Assembly: GCA_021162065.1 (NCBI GenBank)
Contig: JAGGZK010000045.1
Location: 1 to 39,143, forward strand
DNA from: Thermoplasmata archaeon
GTDB taxonomy: Archaea; Thermoplasmatota; E2; UBA202; JdFR-43
Length of the DNA stretch: 39,143 bases
Direction of reading: 5' to 3'
Part shown: positions 1-14,058 of the stretch, piece by piece
How positions within the stretch are numbered: the stretch's first letter is position 1
Layout: every line of letters begins with the position of its first letter
Position numbers and translations under genes: made by a program
The notes under the pieces: generated by a model
Databases searched by the model: none
Seen by the model: the letters and a program-made list of their open reading frames with translations, nothing else
What the model was told of the DNA's origin: nothing

Positions 1-93
1 GATGCAGAAACAACAATAAATTATGTTAGAAATCACAAAACTCAGCAAACTTCTCTCAATGATTTCAATGTGCCTGCTCCTGCCTCTCTGTAG
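1..93 (+). CDS. tnpB: TnpB C-terminal end (partial, runs off the left edge)
   Basis: Reading from base 1 in frame 1 gives 30 residues ending in a proline/alanine-rich tail (VPAPASL) and a TAG stop at 91-93. It is followed at once by a hairpin typical of the right end of IS200/IS605 elements, so I read it as the last part of a TnpB RNA-guided nuclease encoded upstream of the window. The catalytic RuvC-like residues and zinc finger are not in view, so the call rests on the tail composition and on the element end next to it. Whether the gene is intact cannot be told from here. Confidence 0.65.
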   Translation, partial: DAETTINYVRNHKTQQTSLNDFNVPAPASL

Positions 94-126
94 AAGCCCC
101 ACCATTTATGGTGGGGAGAATGTCAC
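94..126 (+). mobile_element. Right end of an IS200/IS605-type element (hairpin)
   Basis: A perfect 8-bp stem, CCCCACCA at 97-104 and TGGTGGGG at 109-116 with loop TTTA, lies 3 nt after the tnpB stop and is followed by GAGAATGTCAC. This hairpin plus trailing ATGTCAC is the familiar subterminal structure of IS200/IS605 right ends. The exact cleavage point is not defined here; I place it near 126. In this family the same segment forms the 3' part of the omega (reRNA) guide RNA, with the flanking host DNA just downstream acting as the guide. Confidence 0.72.
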
Positions 127-127
127 A

Positions 128-730
128 GCCCTTGGTTATATCCTGCCGGAAGACATCTCAGAGATGTACTGGGGTTTCTTTTTCATATGGGGGCTCCTGA
201 TTGCCTATGTGGTAAGGCTGGCGATGGAAAAATTGGGCGCGGGAGGCATAATGGATTCGGGATTGCAGAACAGGATAACGGGATGGGGTGTGGATGTGCT
301 GGTTGTTGCCTCCATTTCCTCCATCTCTTTAAGGATAATTGGAAAATATGCCCTTCCCATACTTTTCATATCCGCCCTGACGGGGGTACTCACTTTGATA
401 TGGATATTCTATCTCGGGAGGAGATCATGGAGGGAATACACCTATGAGAGAATAGCAGGTCTGTATGGAATGGAAACGGGAACCATAGCCACAGGGCTTG
501 TGCTTGTGAGAATGCTCGACGCTTCTTTCAAAACACCCGTCGCCGTGGATCTTGCAGTGAGTGGGATAATCGCCCTCCCCTTTATGTTCATAATGATGCA
601 CATAATGGTGGCCCCCATTCTGTGGGGATGGAATCTTGGCAGCACCCTTGCGGTATATTCCCTCTTTCTCCTTATTTCCACCCTTCTTGTCATCTTCATG
701 GGCAAAACCTACGACGAAAATTTTATATAG
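128..730 (+). pseudogene. C-terminal half of a GltS-like sodium:carboxylate symporter, cut by the IS element
   Basis: The open frame from about 128 to the stop at 728-730 encodes about 200 residues with several hydrophobic helices. It includes a stretch resembling GltS-type symporters (LQNRITGWGVDVLVVASISSI, followed by hydrophobic helices and GMETGTIATGLVLVRMLD). Full family members are about 400-450 residues, so the N-terminal half is missing. The frame can be extended back to an ATG at 23, but that part is the IS end and tnpB tail read in another frame, so it is not native coding sequence. An internal ATG at 164 could start a truncated product of about 188 residues. The N-terminal half is expected on the far side of the IS element. 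It is most likely inactive as a transporter. Confidence 0.65.
721..729 (+). promoter_or_regulatory. TATA box of the thermosome gene
   Basis: TTTTATATA lies about 36 nt before the ATG at 761 and overlaps the stop of the truncated transporter gene. Transcription would start near 751, leaving a leader of about 10 nt that holds GGTGATG as a ribosome binding site. Confidence 0.6.
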
Positions 731-760
731 AAGAATTATTATACCCATCGGTGATGTAAG

Positions 761-2395
761 ATGATGTCAGGAAGAACACCAATTTTGATATTGAAGGAAG
801 GAACGGAAAGAGAGAAAGGTAGGGAAGCGCAGTTCAACAACATAAGGGCTGCAATGGCGATAGCAGATGCTGTACGCTCTACCATGGGACCCAAGGGCAT
901 GGACAAAATGCTCGTGGACAGCATGGGCGATGTGGTGATAACCAATGATGGTGTCACAATCCTGAAGGAGATAGAGGTGGAGCATCCCGCAGCCAAGATG
1001 ATTGTTGAGGTAGCAAAAGCACAGGATGAGGAGTGCGGCGATGGGACAACGACGGCCGTAGTTCTCGCGGGAGAGCTGCTCAAATATGCTCAGGATTTGA
1101 TAGAGCAGGATATTCATCCCACCGTCATAGCAGAGGGTTATCGCCTTGCCAGCAAGAAGGCATGTGAGGTGCTGGACAGCATTGCCCTGGACATAAAGCC
1201 AGACGATGAAGAAATGCTCAAGAGGATTGCTGAGACATCGATGACGGGAAAGGTGGCAGGAGCCAACAAGGAGATGCTGGCTGAGATAGCATACAAGGCG
1301 GTGAAGGCCATTGCAGAGGAGGTTAATGGTCAGATAAGGGTGGATCTGGACAACGTGAAGGTGGAGAAGAAGCAGGGCGGCTCTGTGGAGGATACGGAGC
1401 TCATCAACGGCATCATACTGGACAAGGAGAGAGTTCATCCAGATATGCCCACTATAGTAAAAGACGCCAAGATTCTGCTCATCAATACCTCACTGGAGGT
1501 AAAGAAGACCGAGGTGGATGCCCAGATACGCATAACGGATCCTGAGCAGCTGCAGAAGTTCCTGGATCAGGAAGAGCAGATGATAAAGGACATGGTTCAG
1601 AAGATAAAGGCGAGCGGTGCCAACGTCGTCATATGCCAGAAGGGAATTGATGACCTTGCGCAGCACTATCTGGCAAAGGAGGGAATATTTGCTGTCAGAA
1701 GGGTGAAGAAATCCGACATGGAGAAGCTGTCAAGGGCTACAGGCGCTTCCATACTGACTGACCTGGACGAAATCAAGCCGGAGAACCTCGGAGAGGCAGG
1801 AAAGGTGGAAGAGAAGAAGGTGGGCGACGACAAGATGGTGTTCATAACAGAGTGCAAAGAGGCAAAGGCGGTGAGCATACTGGTGAGAGGGGGCACAGAG
1901 CATGTGGTGGATGAGATAGAGCGTGGACTCAATGATGCTCTCAACGTCATAGCAGTTGCTCTGGAAGATGGCAAGATGATTACCGGTGGCGGCTCAGCAG
2001 CCATAGAGATTTCCATGGCCCTCCGCGATTATGCAGAGACGGTGGGAGGAAGAGAGCAGCTGGCCATAAATAAGTTCGCCGATGCCATAGAGGTGGTGCC
2101 CAGAGCTCTGGCGACCAATGCGGGCATAGATCCCATAGACATACTCATAAAACTCAAGAAAGAACACTCCGAGGGCAAGAAGCATTATGGTGTCAACGTT
2201 CACAAAGGCGATGTGGGCGACATGCTGGAGCTCAATGTGCTGGAGCCAATAAGAGTGGGCAAGCAGGCAGTGAGAAGCGCAACAGAAGTGGCGATAATGA
2301 TTCTCCGCATTGACGACGTCATAGCAGCCAGGGAGATATCCAAGGGCAAAGGCGGTGGCGGCGGAGAAGGCATGGAAGGAATGGGAGAGTACTAA
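761..2395 (+). CDS. thsA: Thermosome subunit (group II chaperonin)
   Basis: This 544-residue protein is a complete archaeal group II chaperonin subunit, which forms a double-ring ATP-driven folding chamber in the cytoplasm. The ATPase motifs are intact: [10 protein letters not shown] at residues 41-50, TNDGVTIL at 61-68 and GDGTTT at 93-98, with the C-terminal GGG nucleotide-binding loop near residue 410. It ends in the usual flexible glycine/methionine-rich tail. Length fits the family (about 540-550). The ATG at 761 is followed directly by a second ATG at 764, and GGTGATG upstream fits either. It has its own promoter and no operon partner. Which thermosome paralogue (alpha or beta) it is cannot be told from the window. 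Confidence 0.97.
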
Positions 2396-2423
2396 ACTAC
2401 TCCCCCCTCAACCCTCTTTTAAG

Positions 2424-2433
2424 TTTTTATATC
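2424..2433 (+). promoter_or_regulatory. TATA box of the deoxyhypusine synthase gene
   Basis: TTTTTATATC is centred about 24 nt before the ATG at 2452, so the mRNA should be leaderless. The T-rich run just before and after it may also serve as the terminator of the thermosome transcript. Confidence 0.65.
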
Positions 2434-2451
2434 TCCTTTTCTTTTGCATTT

Positions 2452-3354
2452 ATGCACGTTGAGGATATCAACATTGAAGATGCTGCGGATGTTGACTCGC
2501 TGGTGAGGCAGTTCTACAAAGCAGGAGGTTTCACTGCAAAGAAGGTGGCGATGGGCGTTGACATAATGGAGGAGATGATCAAGGATGATTATTTCACATT
2601 CCTCACATTTCCCGCCTGCATCCTTGCTACAGGAACGAGGGGCGTGATAAGGGAGATGGTGAAAAGGAAGATGGTGGATGCCATAATAACAACATGCGGC
2701 AGTTTAGATCATGATCTGGCAAGATGCTATCGCGCCTACGAGCACGGAAGTTTTGATGCAGATGACAGCGAGCTGCACAAAAGAGGAATAAATCGGCTGG
2801 GCAACGTATTCGTGCCCAACGAGAGCTATGGCATAATAATCGAGGAGAAGATGAGGGAGTTCTTCGGCGATTTTGAGGGAAGGATGAGCACCAAGGAGGT
2901 GGCATGGGAGATAGGAAAGCATCTCTGCTCCGATTCTTTCCTTTACTGGGCATGGAAGAACTCCATTCCAGTGTATATCCCCGCCATAACGGATGGAGCA
3001 GTGGGCTCCCAGCTCTTCATGCTTTCCCAGGAGAAAAAGATTGAAATAGATGTTTTCAAGGATGAGAGGGAACTGGCGGACATATTCTTTGAAAAGGAGA
3101 GGATAGGAGGAATAATAATCGGTGGAGGAGTATCGAAGCATCACCTCATATGGTGGGCCCAGTTTCATGGCGGCTTAGATGCTGCCGTCTACATAACAAC
3201 GGCGGTGGAGTGGGACGGCTCTTTGTCGGGAGCAAGGTTGAAAGAGGCGATTTCATGGGGTAAGGTGAAGGAGAGGGCGAAGAAAGTTACCATAGAGGGA
3301 GATGCAACTGTCCTCCTTCCTTTAATGGTGGCATCGCTTGTAAAAAGAATATGA
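2452..3354 (+). CDS. dys: Deoxyhypusine synthase
   Basis: A 300-residue deoxyhypusine synthase, which transfers the aminobutyl group of spermidine, using NAD, to one lysine of translation factor aIF5A as the first step of hypusine formation. The NAD/spermidine signature TTCGSLDHDLAR is at residues 80-91. The active-site block VEWDGSLSGARLKEAISWGKVK ends with Lys271, which corresponds to the lysine that carries the enzyme-imine intermediate in the eukaryotic enzyme. Length is normal for archaeal members (about 300-330). It stands alone with its own TATA box and a leaderless start. aIF5A itself is not in the window. Confidence 0.95.
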   Translation: MHVEDINIEDAADVDSLVRQFYKAGGFTAKKVAMGVDIMEEMIKDDYFTFLTFPACILATGTRGVIREMVKRKMVDAIITTCGSLDHDLARCYRAYEHGSFDADDSELHKRGINRLGNVFVPNESYGIIIEEKMREFFGDFEGRMSTKEVAWEIGKHLCSDSFLYWAWKNSIPVYIPAITDGAVGSQLFMLSQEKKIEIDVFKDERELADIFFEKERIGGIIIGGGVSKHHLIWWAQFHGGLDAAVYITTAVEWDGSLSGARLKEAISWGKVKERAKKVTIEGDATVLLPLMVASLVKRI

Positions 3355-3382
3355 TGCCTCCCTTCGATGATTGTACCAAACT

Positions 3383-3392
3383 CTTTATAAAA
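3383..3392 (+). promoter_or_regulatory. TATA box deciding the start at 3413
   Basis: The T-rich TATA element CTTTATAAAA is centred about 26 nt before the ATG at 3413. This supports a leaderless mRNA starting there rather than the upstream TTG. Confidence 0.6.
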
Positions 3393-3412
3393 CACAGGGG
3401 GATAAAAGGAAG

Positions 3413-4453
3413 ATGAAAGGTATCCTGCCCATCCTGATGCTTGCCATTCTTATTCTGCCCTACTCAATGGCAATAGACCTGGGAGATCTGGAATGGAAGG
3501 ATGGGAAACTTTTTGGAAAGTATGTGCCATCAGGCATGGAGGGCGTTATATCCTGCTACTCCAGCGGAAAGCACATAATGGACATAGTTTACAGAAATGA
3601 TTCCATAGAGCTGGATATAAAGTATTTTGACAACTTGGAGAAAATAATAGAGAGAAACCCCTTCCTGAAGGATGAGTTCGAGAATTCCATAATTCCTCTC
3701 AACATAAGAGGCTCCTCCTTCCACATAGAGTATGCCGGATGTGTTGTTGAACTGCATGACGTACCCACCCGCTTTCTGAGGGTGGAAGCGGATAAAATAG
3801 TGGTGAGCGGTATAAACTACAATGTGAGTGTGGAAGACAGCAACTCTCTAACGCTCAGCGGTGAAAACTTCAGCGCCATTCTCATAAGCGATGGAGGGAT
3901 AGAGTATGACGGCAGCATTATAACAGCCCACAGCGATCTCATGCTTGCCAGCTTCATGCAGGAGGAGGAGAAACTGGAGGAGAGCATAAGGAACAGGACC
4001 ATGGGAGGGGAGATAACCATAATGGATTACAGCGTGAATGATACGGACTACATCTCCTACTTCGGAAATGTCAGCGTTGTTCCCGCGGAGATATCAAAGG
4101 AAGGCATAGTGCTTCGTGTGACGGGTGACCATACAAGCGGGGGGAAAATACTGAAGATAAACCTCGGAAAGAAGGTGTGCAAAGCTGGGTTTAGAATAAA
4201 GTTTGACGGCATTCCCGTTGTTAAGGCGGACAGCTTTGATGACATAATGAATCCAGATGATGACGGCATCATGCCGGAGTACTACAACATATCAACGGAT
4301 GAGGGGGAAATACTTCTGATAACAATTCCGCATTTCAGCGAGCATCAGATAAGCATAGAGTTCATAACGGAGAATGTGTGGGCGACCGTGGCGGCCATAG
4401 CCATGGGCATCATATTCATTCTGCTTGCCGCCGCCTACATGTTCAGGAAATAA
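3413..4453 (+). CDS. Secreted/membrane-anchored protein of unknown function
   Basis: The product is about 346 residues from the ATG at 3413. An upstream TTG at 3371 is in frame, but the TATA box lies inside that extension, centred 26 nt before 3413, which favours 3413. The first 20 residues after the start (MKGILPILMLAILILPYSMA) are a signal peptide. The body is a mixed, acidic, beta-rich sequence with several N-x-S/T sites and no family I recognise. A single transmembrane helix near the C-terminus (VWATVAAIAMGIIFILLAAAYM) is followed by FRK. This predicts a protein outside the cell held by a C-terminal anchor. No archaeosortase tripeptide such as PGF precedes the helix, so I do not call it a sorting substrate. 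Confidence 0.75.
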   Translation: MKGILPILMLAILILPYSMAIDLGDLEWKDGKLFGKYVPSGMEGVISCYSSGKHIMDIVYRNDSIELDIKYFDNLEKIIERNPFLKDEFENSIIPLNIRGSSFHIEYAGCVVELHDVPTRFLRVEADKIVVSGINYNVSVEDSNSLTLSGENFSAILISDGGIEYDGSIITAHSDLMLASFMQEEEKLEESIRNRTMGGEITIMDYSVNDTDYISYFGNVSVVPAEISKEGIVLRVTGDHTSGGKILKINLGKKVCKAGFRIKFDGIPVVKADSFDDIMNPDDDGIMPEYYNISTDEGEILLITIPHFSEHQISIEFITENVWATVAAIAMGIIFILLAAAYMFRK

Positions 4454-4981
4454 TCATCTTCCGAAGCCGGTCCACGCCTCCACGAACTTGTCCACCGCTT
4501 TATCGAGAAAGGTGCTCCTGTAGGTGATTATCAAATCCGCCGTCTTCTCAGGATTCTTCACCACATAGGCCTTCTCTCTTCCGAGAGATATTTCATCCAC
4601 TATGCCGGCATCGATGAGCTTTTTTATGTGGAAGGAGATGGTGGAGGGCGCCTTCTTCACCGCCTCGCATATTTCCTTATGAATTGCCTGGGGATGCTGT
4701 AAAAGGAAGAGGACTATTCTTCGGGGCGTTTCCTGGCGGAGCAGGGGCATTATCCTCTTGTCCATCGCCTCCGTTTTTTCTGAGACGAAGTATCGCTTGT
4801 ATTTCCCGTCCTGGCGGGCTGTGAGTATGCCCTTCCTTTCCATGTAGTGGAGGTGGTAATCTATGGTGCTCAGGGACATGCTGAGCTCTCTCGCAATCTC
4901 CCTTTTATGGAGACCTGGGGAAGAAGAGATGAGATCATATATCCTTTTTCTCGTCTCGAGAGCGAGGTAATCTTCCTTCAT
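4454..4981 (-). CDS. Transcription regulator with two winged-helix domains
   Basis: This 175-residue protein holds two ArsR/MarR-like winged helix-turn-helix units: residues about 5-65 (HKREIARELSMSLSTIDYHL then a wing) and about 80-145 (HKEICEAVKKAPSTISFHIK then a wing). It has no visible ligand or metal site. It is the second gene of a two-gene operon and overlaps the upstream small membrane protein gene by 4 nt, which implies translational coupling. Pairs of a tandem-wHTH regulator and a small membrane protein recur in archaea, and I infer that the membrane partner controls the regulator. Its targets are unknown. Confidence 0.85.
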   Translation of the reverse strand: MKEDYLALETRKRIYDLISSSPGLHKREIARELSMSLSTIDYHLHYMERKGILTARQDGKYKRYFVSEKTEAMDKRIMPLLRQETPRRIVLFLLQHPQAIHKEICEAVKKAPSTISFHIKKLIDAGIVDEISLGREKAYVVKNPEKTADLIITYRSTFLDKAVDKFVEAWTGFGR

Positions 4982-5226
4982 TTTCCTGCCGCAGCCAGAT
5001 ACAGCATGAGCACAATGATGAAATCCATGAAGACAAGGGAGTTGAGGAAGTCCTGGTATATAAGCGAGATCATTGCCTTTATGAAGAGGATGAGTAGAGC
5101 AAGAGAGATGAAGAGGAGTTTTTTCTCCCTCAACCTGTGAAATGATACCATGGATATGAAGAACAGCAGGAAGGAAAGGCCCGCCGTAACCGTGGCTGAA
5201 AACAGCAGTATCTCCTTTATTTTCAC
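4978..5226 (-). CDS. Small membrane protein partnered with the wHTH regulator (DUF7521-like)
   Basis: An 82-residue protein that is almost entirely hydrophobic, with three likely transmembrane helices (about residues 5-28, 34-55 and 62-80) and a short basic loop FHRLREKK. It resembles the small membrane proteins found beside tandem winged-helix regulators in archaea (annotated DUF7521 in haloarchaea), though I assign this by context and shape rather than by motif. A strong ribosome binding site, AAAGGAGGTG, sits just before the ATG at 5226. It is first in the operon. It may act as a membrane sensor or anti-regulator for the downstream gene. Confidence 0.7.
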   Translation of the reverse strand: MKIKEILLFSATVTAGLSFLLFFISMVSFHRLREKKLLFISLALLILFIKAMISLIYQDFLNSLVFMDFIIVLMLYLAAAGK

Positions 5227-5398: not shown

Positions 5399-5566
5399 AT
5401 GGTGCAAAGGGTTAGAGAAGTTCGTTTTAATTTAAAGAGGAAAAATCTGAAGGATAAAAATTTCAGATATGCCCTAGAGAAAAACCTAAATCTAGAAGAG
5501 TTGAGAGAGGGGATGATGAGAAAAACATGGGAAATCTTGTATCGGGCATTTGGAAGAGGTGTTTAG
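5399..5566 (+). CDS. Small basic protein upstream of the GHKL-HEPN gene (unknown)
   Basis: An ORF of 55 codons starts at ATG 5399 and stops at 5564-5566, 24 nt before the ATG of the GHKL-HEPN gene. The product is strongly basic and probably helical (for example EVRFNLKRKNLKDKNFRYAL), with no cysteines or membrane segments and no family I recognise. A TATA-like element lies at leaderless spacing, and base composition matches the AT-rich island. It could be an antitoxin, an adaptor for the large protein, or a remnant of a longer gene. Confidence is limited by its length. Confidence 0.4.
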   Translation: MVQRVREVRFNLKRKNLKDKNFRYALEKNLNLEELREGMMRKTWEILYRAFGRGV

Positions 5567-5590
5567 TGGAAGTTATGAGGTGACAAGAAT

Positions 5591-7216
5591 ATGGGAGATG
5601 TATTTATAGGAGAAATTGATGCAACACCCAAGAAAAATGTTCTAATGTCTATATCTAAAGATATAGATTTATATCATGGCATATGTGAAATGATTGATAA
5701 TTCTATAGATAATTGGAAGATAAACGGTAAAAAAGAAGAATTAAAGATAACCCTGTTTTTTGATGAAGGGGATAATAAAATAGAATATGAAGATAATTCA
5801 GGAGGCATTCGGGAGGATATTCTCTCCATGATTATTCAGCCGGGTGGAACCGAACGAACGCTTGATGAGGAAACTCTCGGTATTTTTGGCGTAGGATCTA
5901 AAAGAGCACTAATTGCGTTGGCAGGATATTCAGAGACTATAAGCAGATATGGCACTAATGATACATTTAAGATAATAATAGATGATGAGTGGCTTAGCAA
6001 CGAAAGTTGGAAGGTAAAAAAGTTCAAGACAGACAACATAGAGCCTGGAAAAACGAGATTCATATTAAAACAATTAAAATTCAGAATAAATGATAAAGTG
6101 ATCAACGATATCAAACAGAAGATAGCCGAAACATATTTTTATTATATGCACGAACATGGAGTTAGAATCAAGGTAAATGGAGTCACTCTTACTCCAATAA
6201 TATTTGATAGATGGGCCTATCCTCCAGGAAGAGAACCTCGAAGATACCTATTTAATATTCCTTGTGAAAATGAAGAATATGTTAGAGTTGAGTTATTAGT
6301 CGGACTTATGCTAGAATCAAGTCAAACAGGTGAATATGGTTTCGATGTCTATTGCAATGATAGAATGATTCTTAAGAATGTGAATGATCATCGTTTAGGA
6401 TTTAAATCTGGAATGCTAGGGCAGCCCCATCCTACTGTTGCTTGGTTTAAGGGGATAATTAGGCTAAATGGAAAAAATCGATTTATGCCTTGGAATAGTT
6501 CAAAATCCAATATAGACTCTCTTAATCCTACATATCAAAAACTCCTTGATTTAATATTAAAATATGCAAAACCTTATGTCCAACTCAGTAGAAGACTTTC
6601 TTCAAGTTCCGATGAGGAGATCAAACCATATCGCACCGGCTCGATAATCACCATAGATTTAAGATCAAGAGACCCCAGAGATAGTGATTTTCCTCAATTG
6701 CCCCCAGGTAAAGAATCATATTTCAATAAAGCACTTAAAGAGAATAGAGAAATAATAAAAACATCTCCATGGTCCAGAGGGATTCTAGAAAACATTTTGG
6801 CAGTTGACGCTATACTAAAAACAAAATTAGAAAATAAAAACAGATACGCATTGATATTGCTTGATAGTTGTCTTGAGATAGCATTCAAAGATTATTTAGT
6901 ATGGATTAAGAAAATAAAGATTAACAAATCGCAAGAAAAATACAGAGAGAGACTCCACAAAATTATAAGGAATCAAAAAATAATTCCTGAGAAATATTGG
7001 GATAGAATTGCCTATTATTATGATTTAAGATGTAGACTATATCATGAAGATGCTACACCCACAATTACCGATTCAGATATATTAAATTTTAGATATCTTG
7101 TATGTGAGATCCTTGAAAGGATGATGGGATTAACTTTTGATTTCACACAACATGCTTCCTTTATTAAAAAGATGAAAGCTGAATCTGCTCACAACGATGG
7201 GATAGATGATGAGTAG
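5591..7216 (+). CDS. GHKL-type ATPase fused to a C-terminal HEPN-like domain (candidate defence protein)
   Basis: A 541-residue protein. The N-terminal part is a GHKL (Hsp90/MutL/histidine-kinase type) ATPase: N-box EMIDNSIDN at 33-41, an Asp/Gly motif YEDNSGG at 66-72 and a lid motif GIFGVGSKRA at 97-106. The middle (about 180-330) looks like the transducer domain that usually follows. The last 130 residues are helical and contain D-L-R480-C-R-L-Y-H485, an R-x4-H arrangement like the catalytic motif of HEPN ribonucleases. GHKL plus C-terminal HEPN is the architecture of sacsin-like proteins, and both parts are common in antiviral and abortive-infection genes. Codon use is very AT-rich compared with neighbours, so the gene was probably acquired. 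A ribosome binding site (GAGGTGA) precedes the ATG. The antiviral role is my inference. Confidence 0.75.
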   Translation: MGDVFIGEIDATPKKNVLMSISKDIDLYHGICEMIDNSIDNWKINGKKEELKITLFFDEGDNKIEYEDNSGGIREDILSMIIQPGGTERTLDEETLGIFGVGSKRALIALAGYSETISRYGTNDTFKIIIDDEWLSNESWKVKKFKTDNIEPGKTRFILKQLKFRINDKVINDIKQKIAETYFYYMHEHGVRIKVNGVTLTPIIFDRWAYPPGREPRRYLFNIPCENEEYVRVELLVGLMLESSQTGEYGFDVYCNDRMILKNVNDHRLGFKSGMLGQPHPTVAWFKGIIRLNGKNRFMPWNSSKSNIDSLNPTYQKLLDLILKYAKPYVQLSRRLSSSSDEEIKPYRTGSIITIDLRSRDPRDSDFPQLPPGKESYFNKALKENREIIKTSPWSRGILENILAVDAILKTKLENKNRYALILLDSCLEIAFKDYLVWIKKIKINKSQEKYRERLHKIIRNQKIIPEKYWDRIAYYYDLRCRLYHEDATPTITDSDILNFRYLVCEILERMMGLTFDFTQHASFIKKMKAESAHNDGIDDE

Positions 7217-7352
7217 TATATTGTGGATGATCTCAAAATATCTATTAGAAAATGATTCTCTTCGTCTACAACTCTCTGCCTTAACTCCAACTCTTAGGAT
7301 TTGGGTAACAGTTAGGGCGGTGGTAGATTTGTTTTATTATATTCTTAGATAG
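7206..7352 (+). CDS. Small ORF overlapping the end of the GHKL-HEPN gene
   Basis: An ORF of 48 codons begins at ATG 7206 (followed by a second ATG at 7209) inside the last codons of the GHKL-HEPN gene and ends at 7350-7352. The 11-nt overlap is typical of translationally coupled genes. The product is partly hydrophobic, ending VRAVVDLFYYILR, with no recognised family. It could be a real small partner of the large protein or a chance ORF in AT-rich DNA. Confidence 0.25.
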   Translation: MMSSILWMISKYLLENDSLRLQLSALTPTLRIWVTVRAVVDLFYYILR

Positions 7353-7400: not shown

Positions 7401-7508
7401 CCCCTTTCATAAACCTATAAATAATCTCGCCCAATTACTCATGTGGAGAAGTGGCAATCTCGCTTTGCGTTTTTGATGGCCGCCATCGGTTCTGCTGTTG
7501 GCTTAGGC
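7401..7508 (+). repeat. Direct repeat, left copy: promoter and 5' end of the NSS transporter gene
   Basis: Bases 7401-7508 match 8320-8427 without gaps and with only six mismatches, five of them inside the nine bases at 7425-7433. The copy includes the TATA box at about 7416-7424, the GTG start at 7443 and the first 22 codons of the transporter, which are identical in both copies. After codon 22 the frame meets TGA at 7509-7511, so this copy encodes only a 22-residue stub. It marks the left edge of a 919-bp repeat-bounded segment. Confidence 0.9.
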
Positions 7509-7509
7509 T

Positions 7510-7656
7510 GAGAGGGAGAAGGTGACATTCAAAAATTTTGCAGGCTTGATAGATTATCTGGAAATGGAAAATATGTCTGGGAGACCTGTGAACACAATAA
7601 CTCCGGCAGGGATAGAAGCCATAAGAATCAATGAGATAAAAGAGGAGATAAAATAA
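7510..7656 (+). pseudogene. Remnant of an MNT-type nucleotidyltransferase antitoxin (C-terminal end)
   Basis: Directly after the repeat, an open frame without a proper start encodes about 48 residues ending in TAA at 7654-7656. The pattern FAGLIDYLE...GRPVNTITPAGIEAIR...EI resembles the C-terminal end of MNT-domain (MntA-like) nucleotidyltransferases, where an LE segment is followed by G-R-x-V-D-L-V-T-P. The catalytic GSRARG and D-x-D part is absent, cut off by the duplicated repeat. In intact systems this antitoxin modifies and silences a HEPN toxin encoded next to it, and a fragment of such a toxin follows here. Confidence 0.55.
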
Positions 7657-7819: not shown

Positions 7820-8038
7820 ATGTCGGTTGCGCTATCTGTTCGGTTGCCTGATAATATTATGCGTGAGTTAGAGGAAGTGGCTAATCTGTTGGAACGTCCT
7901 AAAACGTATATTGTTCGTAAGGCGTTAGAGGCTTATTTGGAGGAGTATTCTGATTATTTGATAGCATTGGAAAGATTAAGAGACAAAGATGATTCGATCA
8001 TTTCAAGTAAAGAGCTGAGGGAGCATCTTGGCCTATAA
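7820..8038 (+). CDS. Ribbon-helix-helix antitoxin (CopG/RelB-like)
   Basis: A 72-residue protein. Its first 45 residues have the ribbon-helix-helix pattern: a short strand (VALSVRLPDNI), then helix, turn and helix (RPKTYIVRKALEAYLEEY). The C-terminal part is acidic and would bind the toxin. The toxin gene starts inside its last codons, the normal order for antitoxin-toxin operons. It is expected to dimerise, repress its own promoter and neutralise the RelE-type protein. The gene is AT-rich like the rest of the island. Confidence 0.85.
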   Translation: MSVALSVRLPDNIMRELEEVANLLERPKTYIVRKALEAYLEEYSDYLIALERLRDKDDSIISSKELREHLGL

Positions 8039-8279
8039 GATAGAATATAAATCTTCGGTAATAAAAGATCTGAAAAAATTGGATAAAAAAGTAGCTATGC
8101 GTATCATTCAACAGCTGGAAAAGAGTCTGGGTGAGAATCCGGACCGTGGGACGCCTTTATCAGGACAATTCAAAGGGTTGTTTAAGTACCGGATAGGAGA
8201 TTACCGTGTCATATACGCCAAAACCAGAAAGGGAGTACTTATTCTCCGAATCCGTCACAGAAGCAAAGCATACCGATAA
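8028..8279 (+). CDS. RelE/ParE-family toxin
   Basis: An 83-residue RelE-fold protein that starts with a TTG at 8028, overlapping the antitoxin gene by 11 nt. The fold markers are present: the N-terminal strand (YKIEYKSSVIKDLKKL), a helical hairpin, then LSGQFKGLFKYRIGDYRVIYA and the C-terminal strand with IRHRSKAYR. The basic residues Lys/Arg of the YRIGDYR strand and the terminal HR...YR match ribosome-dependent mRNA-cleaving RelE homologues. It appears intact. An alternative is a ParE-type gyrase poison, which I consider less likely given the YRIGDYR strand and terminal tyrosine-arginine. Confidence 0.85.
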   Translation: MAYKIEYKSSVIKDLKKLDKKVAMRIIQQLEKSLGENPDRGTPLSGQFKGLFKYRIGDYRVIYAKTRKGVLILRIRHRSKAYR

Positions 8280-8319: not shown

Positions 8320-8427
8320 CCTCTTTCATAAACCTATAAATAACCTCCTCTCATTACTCATGTGGAGAAGTGGCAATCTCGCTTTGCGTTTTTGATGGCC
8401 GCCATCGGTTCTGCTGTTGGCTTAGGC
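8320..8427 (+). repeat. Direct repeat, right copy (part of the intact NSS gene)
   Basis: This copy pairs with 7401-7508. It comprises the TATA region (TATAAATAA at 8335-8343), the GTG start at 8362 and the first 22 codons of the functional transporter gene. The 66 coding bases are identical to the left copy, including third codon positions, so the duplication is recent or kept uniform. Confidence 0.9.
8335..8343 (+). promoter_or_regulatory. TATA box of the NSS transporter operon
   Basis: TATAAATAA is centred about 24 nt before the GTG at 8362, predicting a leaderless mRNA. The same element is present in the left repeat copy before the 22-codon stub. Confidence 0.6.
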
Positions 8428-9822
8428 AACATATGGCGGTTTCCCTACGTGGCATATAAGAATGGGGGTGGCGCCTTTCTGATTCCCTACTTCGTTGCCC
8501 TCTTCACTGTTGGCATTCCTCTGCTCATAGCCGAGTACTCCGTGGGAAGCATGTTCAGAAAATCCGCTCCCATGGCGATGAGAAGCATACATCGCAAGGT
8601 GGAGTGGGTGGGATGGTGGGGCGTCTTCTCCGCCTTTCTCATAGCCATATACTACTCCGTGCTGATGGCGTGGTGCCTCTGCTACCTCTTCCACTCCTTT
8701 GGCCTGGTGTGGCAGCCCGATGCCTCCAGCTTCTTCTTCAATGATTTTCTTAAAGCAGGCACCTCCCTCTCCCTGGGGGGAGGAATAAACATGCAGATTG
8801 TTTTTGCCCTCCTTGCCATATGGACATCCATATATCTCATTCTCTACAAGGGAGTGAAATCCATTGGAAAGGTTGTTGCCATAACCGTGCCTTTGCCGAC
8901 GATACTTCTCCTCATTTTAACCGTAAGAGGCCTCACCCTGCCCGGCGCTTCCATGGGGCTGGAATTTTATCTCGCCCCCGATTTCTCCAAGCTGTCCATG
9001 CCATCCGTGTGGCTCGCCGCCTACGCCCAGATATTCTTCTCCCTCTCCCTCGCACAGGGAATAATGATTGTCTACGCCAGTTTCCTGAAGAAGGGCTCGG
9101 ACATAAATAACAATGCGTTCATAACAGCGCTCGCTGACGGCGGCACCGCCTTCCTTGCCGGCTTCGCCGTTTTCGCAGTCCTTGGCTACCTAGCGTATCA
9201 GACGGGAATGCCCATGGAGGAGGTGGCGGGCGGCGGCATAGGTTTGGCGTTCATTACATATCCCACTGCCATAGCAAAGATGCCTATCCTTGCCTCCTTC
9301 TTCGGTGTCATATTCTTCATGGCCCTCCTCACTTTCGGCATCGATTCCGCCTTCTCCATGGTGGAGGCCATAACCAACGGCATGAAGGACAAATTTGGAG
9401 TAAGCAGGGAGAAGATTACATTAATCATATGCATAATGGGATTCCTGCTGGGCTTACTGCTTGTCCCGGGCTCAGGCATCCACTGGATTGAAATAATGGA
9501 TCACTTCGTTTCCAACTTTGCTCTGGTGTTCATCGGCCTGCTGGAATGTCTTGTTTTTGGATATGTTCTGGGAGGAGAAAGAATAAGGAAATATGCCAAT
9601 GATGTTTCCGATATAAGGGTGGGCAGATGGTTCAGCATAATGCTGAAACTCTTCGCCCCCATTGTGCTCATTTCCATAGCAGCCGCCTCTCTGGTGGAAT
9701 TGATGGTGAATGGATATGGAAACTACCCATCATGGAGCATACTGCTGGCTGGCATGATTGTGGCAGCCAGTTTTATAACTGCAATAGTATTTGCGAGGTT
9801 AAAATGTCGGGAGGAGCAATAG
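8362..9822 (+). CDS. Sodium-dependent transporter of the NSS (neurotransmitter:sodium symporter) family, MetP-like
   Basis: A 486-residue, LeuT-fold membrane transporter with about 11 helices. The N-terminal sodium and substrate site signature GSAVGLGNIWRFPY is intact at about residues 16-29, and the unwound helix 6 region (around FSLSLAQGIMIVYAS) is recognisable. The start is the GTG at 8362: the TATA box fits a leaderless mRNA starting there, and the ATG that overlaps it by two bases is out of frame. A 31-codon gene resembling the MetS subunit overlaps its end, so methionine or small neutral amino acids are the likely substrates. Its promoter and first 22 codons are duplicated upstream. Confidence 0.92.
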   Translation: MEKWQSRFAFLMAAIGSAVGLGNIWRFPYVAYKNGGGAFLIPYFVALFTVGIPLLIAEYSVGSMFRKSAPMAMRSIHRKVEWVGWWGVFSAFLIAIYYSVLMAWCLCYLFHSFGLVWQPDASSFFFNDFLKAGTSLSLGGGINMQIVFALLAIWTSIYLILYKGVKSIGKVVAITVPLPTILLLILTVRGLTLPGASMGLEFYLAPDFSKLSMPSVWLAAYAQIFFSLSLAQGIMIVYASFLKKGSDINNNAFITALADGGTAFLAGFAVFAVLGYLAYQTGMPMEEVAGGGIGLAFITYPTAIAKMPILASFFGVIFFMALLTFGIDSAFSMVEAITNGMKDKFGVSREKITLIICIMGFLLGLLLVPGSGIHWIEIMDHFVSNFALVFIGLLECLVFGYVLGGERIRKYANDVSDIRVGRWFSIMLKLFAPIVLISIAAASLVELMVNGYGNYPSWSILLAGMIVAASFITAIVFARLKCREEQ

Positions 9823-9899
9823 CCATGGCTGTGTTCGGATGCATAATATTCTACGGAGGCTTAGCATACTGCATATATCGGGCCACCAGAAAGGGCTAA
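9804..9899 (+). CDS. metS: MetS-like small subunit of the NSS transporter (31 aa)
   Basis: A 31-codon gene begins at ATG 9804 inside the last codons of the transporter gene and ends at 9897-9899. The product starts MSGGAIAMAVFG and has one transmembrane helix with a G-G-L-A-x-C-I pattern and a basic tail (YRATRKG). This closely resembles the small MetS subunit that bacterial MetP-type methionine/alanine importers need for activity. Translation is coupled to the transporter by the 19-nt overlap. A longer upstream frame exists but is only the shadow of the transporter gene. Confidence 0.8.
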   Translation: MSGGAIAMAVFGCIIFYGGLAYCIYRATRKG

Positions 9900-10084
9900 T
9901 TCCCCCAGAAAAGAATTATGGCCACGTAGGCAAAGAAGGCGAAGAGGAGGAGCACAAGAAGCGCCAGGCGGAGGTGCCCAAAGAAGGCAAAGATGAAGAT
10001 TACCCACAGCATGGCAATGCTTATGAAGGCGACGGCCAGGAGTTTCTGAAAGGATATTTCCACGCTTTTATAACCGCCCCACAT
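9896..10084 (-). CDS. Small two-helix membrane protein
   Basis: A 62-residue protein with two transmembrane helices (about residues 14-34 and 38-58) separated by FGHLR. It lies 18 nt downstream of the decarboxylase gene on the same strand, as the last gene of the gcvT-xse-archaeosortase operon. Its stop overlaps the metS stop from the other strand by 4 bp. A TATA-like GGTTATAAAAG lies inside its first codons, so a shorter internal start is possible. Its role is unknown; its place suggests a link to lipid or surface-protein processing. Confidence 0.6.
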   Translation of the reverse strand: MWGGYKSVEISFQKLLAVAFISIAMLWVIFIFAFFGHLRLALLVLLLFAFFAYVAIILFWGN

Positions 10085-10102
10085 TTCAATCTTTCTGAAT
10101 TT

Positions 10103-10687
10103 TCACTCAACCGCTATCGTCGTTCCTGCCTTTATTTTCTGCCCCCTCTTCACCACCACCCTCCATTTTTCAGGTAAAATGACGTCTACCCTTGAGCCAA
10201 ATCTTATTATCCCCATTTTCTCTCCCTTTTTCAGCACATCACCCTCCTCCACATAAGGCACTATCCTCCTGGCCACCATTCCCGCAATCTGGATAACCTT
10301 TATTTTCCCGGCACTGCTCTCAATATCAATCTCCATTCTTTCATTTTTCCCCACATCTCCGTAGGCGGGGGCGTGTCTGCCGGGATAATGCCTCATTCCC
10401 ACAATCTTGCCGTCACAGGGCATGAGATTCACATGCATATCAAGCAGGCTCATAAATATGGAAACTCTGCCATCTCCAGCATGCATCACCTTTCCATCTG
10501 CGGGAGAAATTATGCCCTCCTCTATGCTGCGAGGCATGTCCCGGAAGAAAAACAGGAAGAATATTTGCAGGAGTAAAAATATGGGAAGGAGGTAGAGGAA
10601 AAATGACGAAAAGAGGGTGAGGGTGGCAAACAATAAAAGGAAGGGCAGGGGAAGCAGAGCGATATGAAGGCATTTCCTGGCTATCAT
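10103..10687 (-). CDS. asd: Phosphatidylserine (archaetidylserine) decarboxylase-like enzyme
   Basis: A 194-residue pyruvoyl enzyme of the phosphatidylserine decarboxylase family, which in archaea makes archaetidylethanolamine. Residues 1-48 form two membrane helices. The core begins at SPADGKV (61-67), followed by SLLDMHVN (80-87) with the catalytic histidine region. The self-cleavage site is FGSRVDV (163-169), where Ser165 would become the pyruvoyl group. Length fits the short archaeal/proteobacterial type. The start overlaps the archaeosortase stop by 4 nt. This pairing fits knowledge from Haloferax, where archaeosortase-dependent lipid anchoring needs archaetidylethanolamine synthesis. 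Confidence 0.9.
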   Translation of the reverse strand: MIARKCLHIALLPLPFLLLFATLTLFSSFFLYLLPIFLLLQIFFLFFFRDMPRSIEEGIISPADGKVMHAGDGRVSIFMSLLDMHVNLMPCDGKIVGMRHYPGRHAPAYGDVGKNERMEIDIESSAGKIKVIQIAGMVARRIVPYVEEGDVLKKGEKMGIIRFGSRVDVILPEKWRVVVKRGQKIKAGTTIAVE

Positions 10688-11604
10688 TTTATCAGTTTCC
10701 TTATTCCCCTCTCTATGGGTCCGTTTCTTTTTGGGAGGTTGAATATGGCGATTATGTTGTCATAAAGTTCTGGCAGCAGTTCAAACACTATGAAGGCGAG
10801 GACGATGAGGGCAATCAATGAGCCGATCTTGCCTATCACATTGTGCATCATGTAAAAGGACAGCCCGAGTTCCTCCATTCCATATATGACCCCAACATTT
10901 CTCACAAGATTGAGAACATAGATGGTGGGCACGGTGTACAGAAATGCCTTCATCCTTCTCTTTGTATCCGCCTTCAGGGCCGCCAGCACCCCGATGAAGA
11001 CGGCCATGGATTGCAGGCCCGTGCATGCGAGAATGAGCTGAACGCTCTCATGACCATTGAAGTATATGGGAACCTCTATGCTCACCCCATAATGTATGGT
11101 GCCCGCCTCCACGTTGTAGCCGAGAATACGCATTATGGCCGCCGTCTGCTCCGCCACCCCCTTTATGAGCCATCCAGAAAGGATGTCTATTTTGAGTATG
11201 AGGAAATAGAGTATGCCCGCAAAGAAGGTCGCACCCGCAAGAAAATTCAAACTCTCCACATCCTCATTTCTCTTGAGGGAGAGATACTCATGATATGAGA
11301 GGTAGGAGAGGAAGTAAACGCCCACTATGCAGAAAACCGCGTTGACCGTGTCCCCCTCTCCCTTATAGTAAAGATACTCCGGCTGGGTCGCCCAGTAGAG
11401 GGCAAAGATGAACCATCCAAGGAGGGAAAGGATGTGTTTTCTCTCCTTTACTTCAAAAAACCCCATGCCGAGGAGGATGAGGCCTGCAAAAAGAATGGGA
11501 GTGGTGATGGCGTTGAAGGTGGAGATGCTCTCATTCACAATTGTATAATGGGTGGCGAGCATCACGGCCGTGGGTATGCCAAAGAAGAACAGGGCATGCT
11601 TCAT
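10684..11604 (-). CDS. Archaeosortase (exosortase-family transpeptidase)
   Basis: A 306-residue multi-spanning membrane protein of the exosortase/archaeosortase family. These enzymes cleave C-terminal sorting signals of exported proteins and attach them to membrane lipid. The three catalytic positions are present: Cys194 in LACTGLQS, Arg235 in LVRNVGVIYG, and His254 in MMHNVIGKIGS. The N-terminal 120 residues add extra helices, as in ArtA-type proteins. The gene is wedged between xseB and the decarboxylase gene with 4-nt overlaps on both sides. Which Art subfamily it belongs to, and so which tripeptide it recognises, cannot be decided from the window. No clear substrate tail (PGF- or PEF-like) is seen nearby. 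Confidence 0.88.
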   Translation of the reverse strand: MKHALFFFGIPTAVMLATHYTIVNESISTFNAITTPILFAGLILLGMGFFEVKERKHILSLLGWFIFALYWATQPEYLYYKGEGDTVNAVFCIVGVYFLSYLSYHEYLSLKRNEDVESLNFLAGATFFAGILYFLILKIDILSGWLIKGVAEQTAAIMRILGYNVEAGTIHYGVSIEVPIYFNGHESVQLILACTGLQSMAVFIGVLAALKADTKRRMKAFLYTVPTIYVLNLVRNVGVIYGMEELGLSFYMMHNVIGKIGSLIALIVLAFIVFELLPELYDNIIAIFNLPKRNGPIERGIRKLIK

Positions 11605-11807
11605 ATTTCTCCGCTCAACTCCTCTATTCTCGCCTCAGCCCTTTCCAGTTTTTCCCTGCATATTTTGAAGAGACGGATGCCTTCCTCAAATTTCTTCAGC
11701 ATTTCATCTAAAGTCAAATCGCCCTTCTCCAGCTCCTCCACCACCCTCTCCAGCGCCTTCAGAGCATCCTCAAACTTTATTTCCTTCTCTTCTCCTCCAT
11801 CCTGCAT
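11601..11807 (-). CDS. xseB: Exodeoxyribonuclease VII small subunit
   Basis: A 68-residue, all-helical protein with the XseB pattern: FEDALKALERVVEELEKGDLTLDEMLKKFEEGIRL followed by a second charged helix. It binds the C-terminal helices of XseA to make the nuclease that degrades single-stranded DNA to oligonucleotides. Its start lies within the end of xseA (31-nt overlap) and its stop overlaps the archaeosortase start. Length is typical (60-80). Confidence 0.92.
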   Translation of the reverse strand: MQDGGEEKEIKFEDALKALERVVEELEKGDLTLDEMLKKFEEGIRLFKICREKLERAEARIEELSGEI

Positions 11808-12967
11808 TTTGCTTCACCATCCTTCACAATAACTCTCAGCACATCTCCAATATCCGCATCCCCTATGCTACTAAATACTTTGTTATCCTTTTCCCTTATG
11901 CAAATGCTGTATCCCCTCTCCAGCACCCTGTACGGGCTCATGGCTTCCAGCGCCGTGTGAAGCACCTCCATGTCATGCCTCCGGGAAGCAATGAGAGAGT
12001 TCATTACACCCTCCATCTCCTTTACAACACCCTCACACCTTTCCCTTTTTCTCTCCACCCCCCTTGCCGCATGAATCATCATCCTCTCCGGCCTCATCCC
12101 CTCCAGAGTTTCCATTGCTCTTCCTACCCGCCTCGCCACCAGAGAAAGCATTCTTTCCATGGCCTCATCCATCCACTCCATTATTTCCCTTCCATCGGGC
12201 ACCGCCATCTCTGCGGCAGCAGAAGGTGTAGCCGCTCTAACATCGGCAACAAAATCGGCTATGGTGAAATCGCTTTCATGCCCCACCCCGGAGATTATGG
12301 GAATTCTCGAGCGAAATATGGCCCTTGCCACCTTTTCCTCATTGAAGGCCTGCAAATCCTCCCATCTCCCGCCGCCTCTGGCGAGTATTATGACATCCAC
12401 ATCATCCCTCTCATTCAGCGCCTCTATGGCTCTAACAATCTCATCCGCCGCCGTCTCGCCCTGAACCCTCACAGGAGCAAGGACAATGCGGAGGGGAAAT
12501 CTTCTTGAGATCACGTTGTAGATGTCATGGATGGCAGCCCCTTCCTTAGAGGTTATGACCCCGACGGTGGATGGAATGGGAGGTATGGCTTTTTTATATC
12601 TCCTGTCGAAGAGCCCTTCCTTTTCCAGTTTCTCCTTCATTTCAAGAAATTTTATGAAAATTTCCCCTATGCCCCCTATCTTTATTTCCCTGACATATAA
12701 CTGGTAGTATCCTCTTTTTTCGTATACGCCAACATCGCCCTTCACAATCACCTTCATGCCCTCTCGAAGCGATGCATTTTCCGCGTTAAACATGACGCAT
12801 TTTATGCTTGCCCTCTCGTCCTTCAGGGAGAAGTAGCAGTTATTTCCCACCTTTCTGTAGTCGGATATCTCACCCTCCACCCATATGTTCCTTAATTCAT
12901 CCCTCTCCAGCAGATTCTTTATGAAGTTGGCTATCTCACCAACGCTGAATATCTTTTTCTTCAGCAT
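11777..12967 (-). CDS. xseA: Exodeoxyribonuclease VII large subunit
   Basis: A 396-residue XseA. The N-terminal OB-fold (about residues 5-100: FSVGEIANFIKNLLERDELRNIWVEGEIS) binds single-stranded DNA. The nuclease core follows with the conserved ITSKEGAAIHDI, a VQGE segment, and the signature VIILARGGGRWEDLQAFNEEKVARAI near residues 195-220, then GVGHESDFTIADFVADVRAATPSAAAE. A helical C-terminal region holds the XseB contacts. It is slightly shorter than bacterial homologues (about 400-450). Exonuclease VII is mainly bacterial and patchy in archaea, so an old transfer is likely. It overlaps gcvT by 7 nt. Confidence 0.95.
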   Translation of the reverse strand: MLKKKIFSVGEIANFIKNLLERDELRNIWVEGEISDYRKVGNNCYFSLKDERASIKCVMFNAENASLREGMKVIVKGDVGVYEKRGYYQLYVREIKIGGIGEIFIKFLEMKEKLEKEGLFDRRYKKAIPPIPSTVGVITSKEGAAIHDIYNVISRRFPLRIVLAPVRVQGETAADEIVRAIEALNERDDVDVIILARGGGRWEDLQAFNEEKVARAIFRSRIPIISGVGHESDFTIADFVADVRAATPSAAAEMAVPDGREIMEWMDEAMERMLSLVARRVGRAMETLEGMRPERMMIHAARGVERKRERCEGVVKEMEGVMNSLIASRRHDMEVLHTALEAMSPYRVLERGYSICIREKDNKVFSSIGDADIGDVLRVIVKDGEAKCRMEEKRRK

Positions 12968-14058
12968 TCTCCCTTCTTCACAAATGGCCCCTTAATGATT
13001 TCCGCCTCTATATCCCTCCTTCCCCTTATCGTTACCATATTTCCCACATCCCTGTATTTTGTGTTTACGTAGGCGAGGGCTATGCCCTTTTTCAAACACG
13101 GAGAGAAATTGCCGGACGATACCACCCCAATTCTTTCCCCGTTCAGTATCACCTCATCCCCGTGCCTGGGGATACCGTTGCTCCTGCATACTAAATAGGT
13201 TATTTTTTCGTACTCCTCTCTCTTCTTGAACTCCATCACCGCCTCCTTTCCTATGAAATCGTGCTCCCAGTCGATGGTCCATTCAAGGCTGGCCTCTATG
13301 GGATTTCTTCCCCCCTCAAATTCATTGCCTGCCAGCATGAAGCCCTTTTCAAGGCGGAGCGTGTCTCTTGCCCCCAGCCCAATGGGCATTATGCCATATT
13401 TCTCACCCCTGGTAAGAATTTCCCTGAAAACATCTATTGCCTCCTCCGCCGGATGAATATACATCTCGTAGCCCTTTTCTCCCGTATAACCGCTCCTGGA
13501 CACAATGCATCTTCCATCGAAGGGCATTCTGAATTTATTTCCAACTTCCTCGCATCCGAAAAATTTGAGAGTGGAAAAGTCGAAATCTATTATCTCTTTC
13601 ATCACCTCCTCGGAATGCGGGCCCTGAACAGCCAGTATTGAATAATCATTAGTGACATCCTCTATCTCCACATTCCCCTCTGCATTCTCCTCCATCCATT
13701 TCACCACCTTCTCATGCATGCCGGAGTTGGGAATGATGAGATACTCGTCGTTTCCTAAATTGAAAAACAGCTCATCATCTATTATGCTTCCATCGGGGTT
13801 GAGAAGCAGGGTGTACTGTCCCATGCCCCTCTTTATCTTCTCCGCCCTCTCCACCGTGATTCTGCTCAGCAGTTTTTCCGCATCCCTTCCCCTTATTATC
13901 ACATTCCCCATGTGACTCACATCAAATATTCCCACTTTGTGGCGAACGTTGAGATGCTCCTCCTGAATGGAGGTGTATCTTAAAGGCATCTCATAGCCTA
14001 TAAAATCGGTGAAGGAGGCGCCCAATTCCTTGTGAAGTTCATACAATGCCGTTCTCAT
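12961..14058 (-). CDS. gcvT: Aminomethyltransferase (glycine cleavage T protein)
   Basis: A 365-residue GcvT/folate-binding enzyme, which releases ammonia from the aminomethyl-lipoyl H protein and passes the methylene to the tetrahydropterin. Motifs include the start MRTALYELHKELGASFTDFIGYEMPLRY, FDVSHMGN, the pterin-binding SRSGYTGEKGYEMY with its glutamate, and GARDTLRLEKGFMLAGNEF. An extended frame reaches an ATG at 14073, but a TATA-like element centred near 14084 lies 26 nt before the ATG at 14058, where family homology begins, so I choose that. It leads a compact operon with xseAB. The other glycine-cleavage genes are not in the window. Confidence 0.94.
   Translation of the reverse strand: MRTALYELHKELGASFTDFIGYEMPLRYTSIQEEHLNVRHKVGIFDVSHMGNVIIRGRDAEKLLSRITVERAEKIKRGMGQYTLLLNPDGSIIDDELFFNLGNDEYLIIPNSGMHEKVVKWMEENAEGNVEIEDVTNDYSILAVQGPHSEEVMKEIIDFDFSTLKFFGCEEVGNKFRMPFDGRCIVSRSGYTGEKGYEMYIHPAEEAIDVFREILTRGEKYGIMPIGLGARDTLRLEKGFMLAGNEFEGGRNPIEASLEWTIDWEHDFIGKEAVMEFKKREEYEKITYLVCRSNGIPRHGDEVILNGERIGVVSSGNFSPCLKKGIALAYVNTKYRDVGNMVTIRGRRDIEAEIIKGPFVKKGEC

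Follow-up and report, generated by a model that had tools for sequence, protein, structure and literature searches.

The 39,143-nucleotide window (the whole stretch of DNA that was analysed) carries a gene for a 541-residue protein in which an N-terminal GHKL ATPase and an S5-type middle domain are joined to a C-terminal domain with the predicted fold and motif of HEPN ribonucleases. The GHKL-HEPN identity is supported by profile matches, conserved residues and predicted structure, and a defence role is likely. On balance, the protein is probably a defence effector that stands alone, encoded by one gene, with an RNase that would be controlled by an ATP-gated clamp; this reading leans on modelled structure and on the comparison of homologues. 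On the evidence presented here, the 541-residue protein alone is the whole functional unit. The GHKL-HEPN protein is thereby placed in a Thermoplasmatales-related archaeon, and a low prevalence of CRISPR-Cas is reported for the Thermoplasmatota (PMC12988326). The features of the region are listed in Table 1.

Table 1. Features in and around the GHKL-HEPN gene, in window positions.
Feature	Position	Strand	Basis or remark
55-codon ORF (55 aa)	5399..5566	+	
DNA block common to the window and the G006/L011 copy	5550..7282	+	88% identical; horizontally inherited unit
Shine-Dalgarno-like GAGGTGA	5577-5583	+	inside the DNA block common to the G006/L011 copy
GHKL-S5-HEPN protein, 541 aa	5591..7216	+	15 aligned homologues; 90% identical copy in G006/L011
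GHKL (Bergerat) ATPase domain, about residues 4-195	5600..6175	+	Pfam match, invariant columns, PDB sequence relatives
E33 codon, presumed general base	5687-5689	+	
S5/middle (transducer) domain, about residues 204-335	6200..6595	+	conserved MPW-x-S-x-K motif; structural match
HEPN-fold helical domain, residues 394-512	6770..7126	+	AF2 model of residues 386-541; PDB matches
E429 codon, conserved acidic residue of a HEPN helix	6875..6877	+	absent, like H485, from one clade
R480-x4-H485, predicted RNase motif	7028..7045	+	conservation among 15 homologues
48-codon ORF (48 aa)	7206..7352	+	11-nt overlap (7206-7216) with the 541-aa gene
RelB/RelE type II toxin-antitoxin pair, intact	7820..8279	+	neighbour, outside the unit

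The ATPase and middle domains

The N-terminal region matches HATPase_c (E=2.8e-6) and HATPase_c_3 (E=5.7e-6), both above the Pfam gathering score. The superfamily pattern E..DN, DxxGG and GxFGxG is present, with D68-x-S-G-G and G97-x-F-G-x-G as the glycine-containing motifs, and E33, D36, N37, D68, G72, G100, G102 and K104 are invariant in all 15 aligned homologues. The profile match and the Bergerat-fold motifs place the protein in the GHKL ATPase superfamily, so that the GHKL ATPase with its nucleotide motifs, as read in the first-pass annotation, stands. The AF2 model of the whole protein (pLDDT 80.5) matches TRAP1/Hsp90 and MORC2/3 over the N-terminal and middle domains when compared with the PDB. 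By sequence, the best PDB relatives of the N-terminal module are MORC4 and MORC3, with TopoVI-B also matched, and the Morc6_S5 profile gives a weak match in one family member. The S5-like second domain and the affinity with the MORC branch fit the MORC/paraMORC (GHKL plus S5) group, and, as far as sequence comparison can tell, the N-terminal module is closest to MORC-type GHKL-S5 ATPases rather than to sacsin.

The predicted HEPN domain

Residues 386-541, folded separately with AF2, give a model (pLDDT 82.7) with the four/five-helix fold of the HEPN superfamily, and the 13 best PDB matches found with Foldseek are all (13 of 13) HEPN-fold structures, among them MntA-HepT/HEPN-MNT toxins, the human sacsin HEPN domain and MtlR. 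These matches have probabilities of 0.69-0.97 and E values of 0.21-0.82, none significant singly, so the fold assignment rests on their unanimity together with the motif. Pfam, NCBIfam and PADLOC models do not name the C-terminal domain, and a HEPN profile gave no meaningful match among PDB chain sequences. The residues R480 and H485 lie where the earlier annotation placed them, and the model obtained shows the HEPN fold whose absence would have refuted its reading. R-x4-H arises by chance in 25% of shuffled C-terminal regions, which makes the motif weak alone; it is the conservation and the fold that carry the case. R480 is kept in 14 of the 15 homologues, and H485 and E429 in 13 each, which bears out the expected conservation; the Rx4-6H site of the superfamily is complete in 13 of the 15 members and lost in a Septu-linked clade.

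The two exceptions are L021 (I480, Y485, T429) and L023 (R480 kept, F485, T429), and S426 is lost in both. Both retain an intact GHKL site and group in a single clade with full support, the motif loss mapping to one event on the sequence tree. In addition, a frame-broken copy on a Rhizobium plasmid (L008), 55-61% identical to L021, has also lost the histidine and E429. Its neighbours, an AAA ATPase and an endonuclease, occupy the same divergent position as Septu, and the HEPN histidine and E429 are gone in all three copies, beside Septu in L021 and L023 and beside this ATPase-endonuclease pair in L008. Judged from these substitutions, L021, L023 and L008 represent a predicted, natural nuclease-dead clade.

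Distribution and horizontal spread

The gene has a GC content of 33.3% (26% at third codon positions), against 48.7% for positions 1-5000 and 49.0% for 8320-14000, and equally AT-rich stretches make up 0.3% of the 1.6-kb stretches of the window. It thus differs from its neighbours as first described; the flanking genes, with about 49% GC, look like core archaeal chromosome. Among 59 related genomes, one copy with 90% identity was found in a different genus of the same family, and another, 37% identical, within the same class; a scan by pattern of some 85,000 species genomes returned 16 loci, in Thermoplasmatota, Methanosarcinaceae, DPANN, Bathyarchaeota, Pseudomonadota, Bacteroidota, Chloroflexota, Ignavibacteria and WOR-3. 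The family is rare and patchy (3 of the 59 relatives; 2 of the 337 genomes of an alphaproteobacterial sample), and its members, across archaea and bacteria, are mostly 30-40% identical to the window protein. In the tree, archaeal and bacterial members are interleaved, with only some forks well supported. The gene is horizontally acquired and moving. The pattern scan returned no relatives of the GHKL-HEPN protein on viral contigs, and in phage records the GHKL half only was found, in the filamentous phage PfAC20.

DNA similarity between the window and the 90%-identical sister copy (locus L011 of genome G006) is confined to the shared block in Table 1, and in a comparison aimed at an empty site by the symporter gene, blastn detected no similarity between the left-hand genes of the window and the DNA upstream of that gene in relatives. 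On either side of the sister copy lie direct repeats of about 53 bp that are 94-95% identical (L011:5801-5853 and L011:7753-7806); they possibly mark a mobile cassette, or else a dispersed repeat. The sister copy is preceded by a reading frame that ends in LPKELLEKAFRGEL and whose stop codon overlaps the Shine-Dalgarno sequence; this end resembles those of HsdS proteins. Pfam did not find Methylase_S in the frame, and tblastn gave no annotated HsdS match to it. The idea that the gene once lay behind hsdS was kept as a lead only, the HsdS proteins of both genomes ending differently.

The small ORFs and the neighbours in the window

The first-pass annotation described the gene as the centre of a candidate three-part system with a small ORF on either side. 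All three ORFs are present at the positions given, including the 11-nt overlap, and yet the small ones do not accompany the gene elsewhere. Since the DNA shared with the sister copy ends at the block borders, the 55-codon ORF lies outside it except for its last 17 bases; the 48-codon ORF is partly inside, and indels break its frame in the sister copy. Neither was found at the 13 loci beyond the sister copy, no small ORF beside the gene is common to any two loci, and no homologue of the 55-codon ORF was detected in relatives, plasmids or the 14 other loci. Searches of families and sequence collections with the small ORFs gave no match. When the 350-nt region of each small ORF was shuffled, a plus-strand ORF of its length arose with a frequency of 9% for 55 codons and 21% for 48 codons, so neither is clearly above chance. 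The 55-codon ORF is probably spurious or a leader sequence, and the 48-codon ORF probably spurious. With the small ORFs absent or frame-broken in every other copy, the expectation that they would stay beside homologues failed, and the three-part layout is thus not supported as a system.

The only conflict-type neighbour of the gene within the window is RelBE, which is not present beside the sister copy. Two toxin-antitoxin loci had been reported next to the gene; RelBE is one, and is intact, and the second proved to be only a decayed reading frame (7510-7656) that precedes it. Both sit between direct repeats of 108 bp, 94% identical, at 7401-7508 and 8320-8427, which duplicate the promoter region and the first 22 codons of a symporter gene (8362-9822) and occur as a single copy in relatives. 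This suggests that the segment between the repeats is a separate small insertion with target duplication.

Genomic neighbourhoods of the homologues

Defence or DNA-modification genes adjoin 8 of the 14 homologue loci, several in apparent operons. In L022, genes for a DndC-like protein (PAPS reductase), PbeC/DndD and DndE-HerA lie directly upstream, with an 8-nt gene overlap, and in L019, PbeA, DndE and a DndD-like SMC ATPase are found just upstream. L018 has HerA, NurA and an N6/N4 methylase, which ends 2 nt before the gene; together the four genes form an apparent operon (L018:1368-7584) in an Anaerolineales genome. Divergent Septu genes are present in L021 (PtuA and PtuB models) and L023 (PtuA). 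A full-length Dsr1 lies just upstream of the sister copy, with HicB/HicA-like ORFs, recognised by eye, downstream. L024 has Lambda-5_A, a Dam methylase and RhuM-Fic, and L014 has TIR/SEFIR. L016 adjoins a HerA/TraG-like ATPase, L020 lies near HNH genes, and in L012, L013, L015 and L017 no nameable defence gene was found nearby.

GHKL-S5 relatives with other C-termini have also been observed. On haloarchaeal plasmids, they adjoin Dam methylases. The first gene of the Pseudomonas filamentous phage PfAC20 (L010:280-1605) encodes another such relative with a different C-terminus, near a cytosine (C5) methylase, and is possibly phage-borne defence cargo.

Proposed function and alternative explanations

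In GHKL proteins such as MutL, Hsp90 and MORC, ATP binding closes the N-terminal dimer, and in HEPN RNases, which are active as dimers, the Rx4-6H site is composite. In the proposed mechanism, ATP binding would close a dimeric clamp that may sense invader DNA or a failed restriction/modification event; the two HEPN domains would then meet and form a composite, metal-independent RNase site. Host or invader RNA would be cut, with tRNA as a plausible target, and this cleavage would stop translation and virus growth and arrest the infected cell. Its mode of action would resemble that of PrrC and RloC, the ABC ATPase being replaced by a GHKL clamp. ATP-driven control of an RNase had already been proposed in the first-pass annotation, and the predicted fold, the conservation of R480, H485 and E429 and the defence neighbourhoods all support it; the gating itself, the sensing and the target we infer. 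The invariant GHKL motifs, the patchy occurrence, the mixing of archaeal and bacterial members in the tree and the precedent of VcSduA also favour a defence effector. Against it weigh the HEPN-fold matches without singly significant E values, the lack of a named model for the C-terminal domain, the homologue loci L012, L013, L015 and L017, and RelBE as the sole conflict-type neighbour in the window.

A different role, which we regard as possible but rather unlikely, is that of an ATPase accessory to systems of DNA modification or restriction. The GHKL-S5 clamp would then loop or sense DNA, and the HEPN domain would serve chiefly for dimerisation or RNA binding and not as the killing enzyme. 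The links to Dnd/Pbe and methylase operons would suit such a role, as would the Septu-linked clade, which keeps all GHKL motifs without H485 and E429, and the haloarchaeal plasmid proteins beside Dam methylases. However, the full HEPN motif is retained in 13 of the 15 members, in archaea as well as bacteria, and only a single clade has lost it. The similarity of the predicted fold to the N-terminal and middle domains of Hsp90 and to the sacsin HEPN domain, and the homologue loci without recognisable defence genes, would fit a chaperone-like or housekeeping protein, active in sacsin-like protein folding and moved horizontally by chance. This is improbable given a rare, patchy and horizontally moved family that adjoins defence systems in most contexts and whose nearest GHKL branch by sequence is MORC.

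The least probable reading, largely refuted, is a toxin-antitoxin or three-part system with the 55- and/or 48-codon ORF as regulator or antitoxin. The short ORFs do closely flank the gene, and an AT-rich, TATA-like stretch lies about 25 nt before the first ATG, but neither ORF is kept in the 90%-identical copy or at any other locus, and both are homologue-free ORFs of unexceptional length. The preferred reading, a single-gene defence effector with an ATP-gated RNase, can be extended in a tentative, more speculative direction. This HEPN family, which is distinct and unnamed, might together with its paraMORC-type clamp constitute a back-up RNase, mobile and encoded by one gene, that can be coupled to several unrelated systems of DNA recognition (phosphorothioation Dnd/Pbe, HerA-NurA-methylase, Dsr1 and Septu) and is triggered once they are breached. 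In the clade linked to Septu, the protein would have a dead nuclease and would have become a pure clamp or sensor for PtuAB.

With its 15 aligned members, its clear catalytic motif, its operon-like phosphorothioation links and, beside Septu, a natural clade with a dead nuclease, the family makes both the ATP-gate model and the portable back-up RNase idea directly testable. Among the novelties, this Septu-linked clade and the members in phosphorothioation operons lend themselves best to testing.

Comparison with known systems

The first-pass annotation did not recognise the layout as a described system. The architecture had, however, been predicted in 2013: Ymh-type HEPN domains (PF09509) fused to paraMORC GHKL ATPases were found in restriction-modification neighbourhoods and a PrrC/RloC-like role was proposed (Anantharaman et al. 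2013, PMC3710099), the paraMORC families having been described before (Iyer et al. 2008, PMC2292703). The present protein shares the GHKL-S5 ATPase, the C-terminal HEPN domain, the neighbourhoods of restriction-modification type and the proposed role, but its neighbourhoods are mostly Dnd/Pbe, Septu, Dsr1 and HerA-NurA-methylase and not classical restriction-modification. Membership in Ymh was considered and rejected: none of the 15 members matches PF09509 at E values up to 10, and a profile-profile comparison (hhalign) with seven Ymh domains gave a probability of 0.8%, yet with the HEPN motif in register. No GHKL-Ymh fusion for direct comparison was present in the 337 genomes. This HEPN family has no Pfam or NCBIfam match, and no system protein model of PADLOC-DB 2.0.0 matches the 541-residue protein at E values up to 1. 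In the literature searched, most subscription journals and all preprints excepted, neither the family nor its association with Dnd/Pbe and Septu appears to have been described, and the same literature held no report of an experimental test of the GHKL-gated HEPN nucleases predicted in 2013.

Sacsin also combines Hsp90-like ATPase modules with a C-terminal HEPN domain, which the predicted HEPN domain matches (3o10, TM-score 0.56 by query). It is, however, a eukaryotic protein of giant size in which three Hsp90-like modules are accompanied by a DnaJ domain, and the human sacsin HEPN domain is without the catalytic motif (PMC3710099). PrrC and RloC back up restriction as a second line, with an ATPase that gates the HEPN RNase (PMC3710099). 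Compared by description, they share with the GHKL-HEPN protein the combination of ATPase and HEPN RNase (predicted in the present protein), and differ in having an ABC ATPase in place of GHKL and known tRNA targets. The closest experimental precedent, by analogy of architecture, is VcSduA, a GHKL-containing Shedu protein (paraMORC3) for which phage protection needs both E27 and the nuclease site (PMC12137116). It is likewise a single protein in which an N-terminal GHKL ATPase is thought to control a C-terminal nuclease. The Shedu DUF4263 nuclease domain has no Pfam match in the present family: in VcSduA, the nuclease is a PD-(D/E)xK enzyme (DUF4263) that acts on DNA, whereas here a HEPN RNase is predicted.
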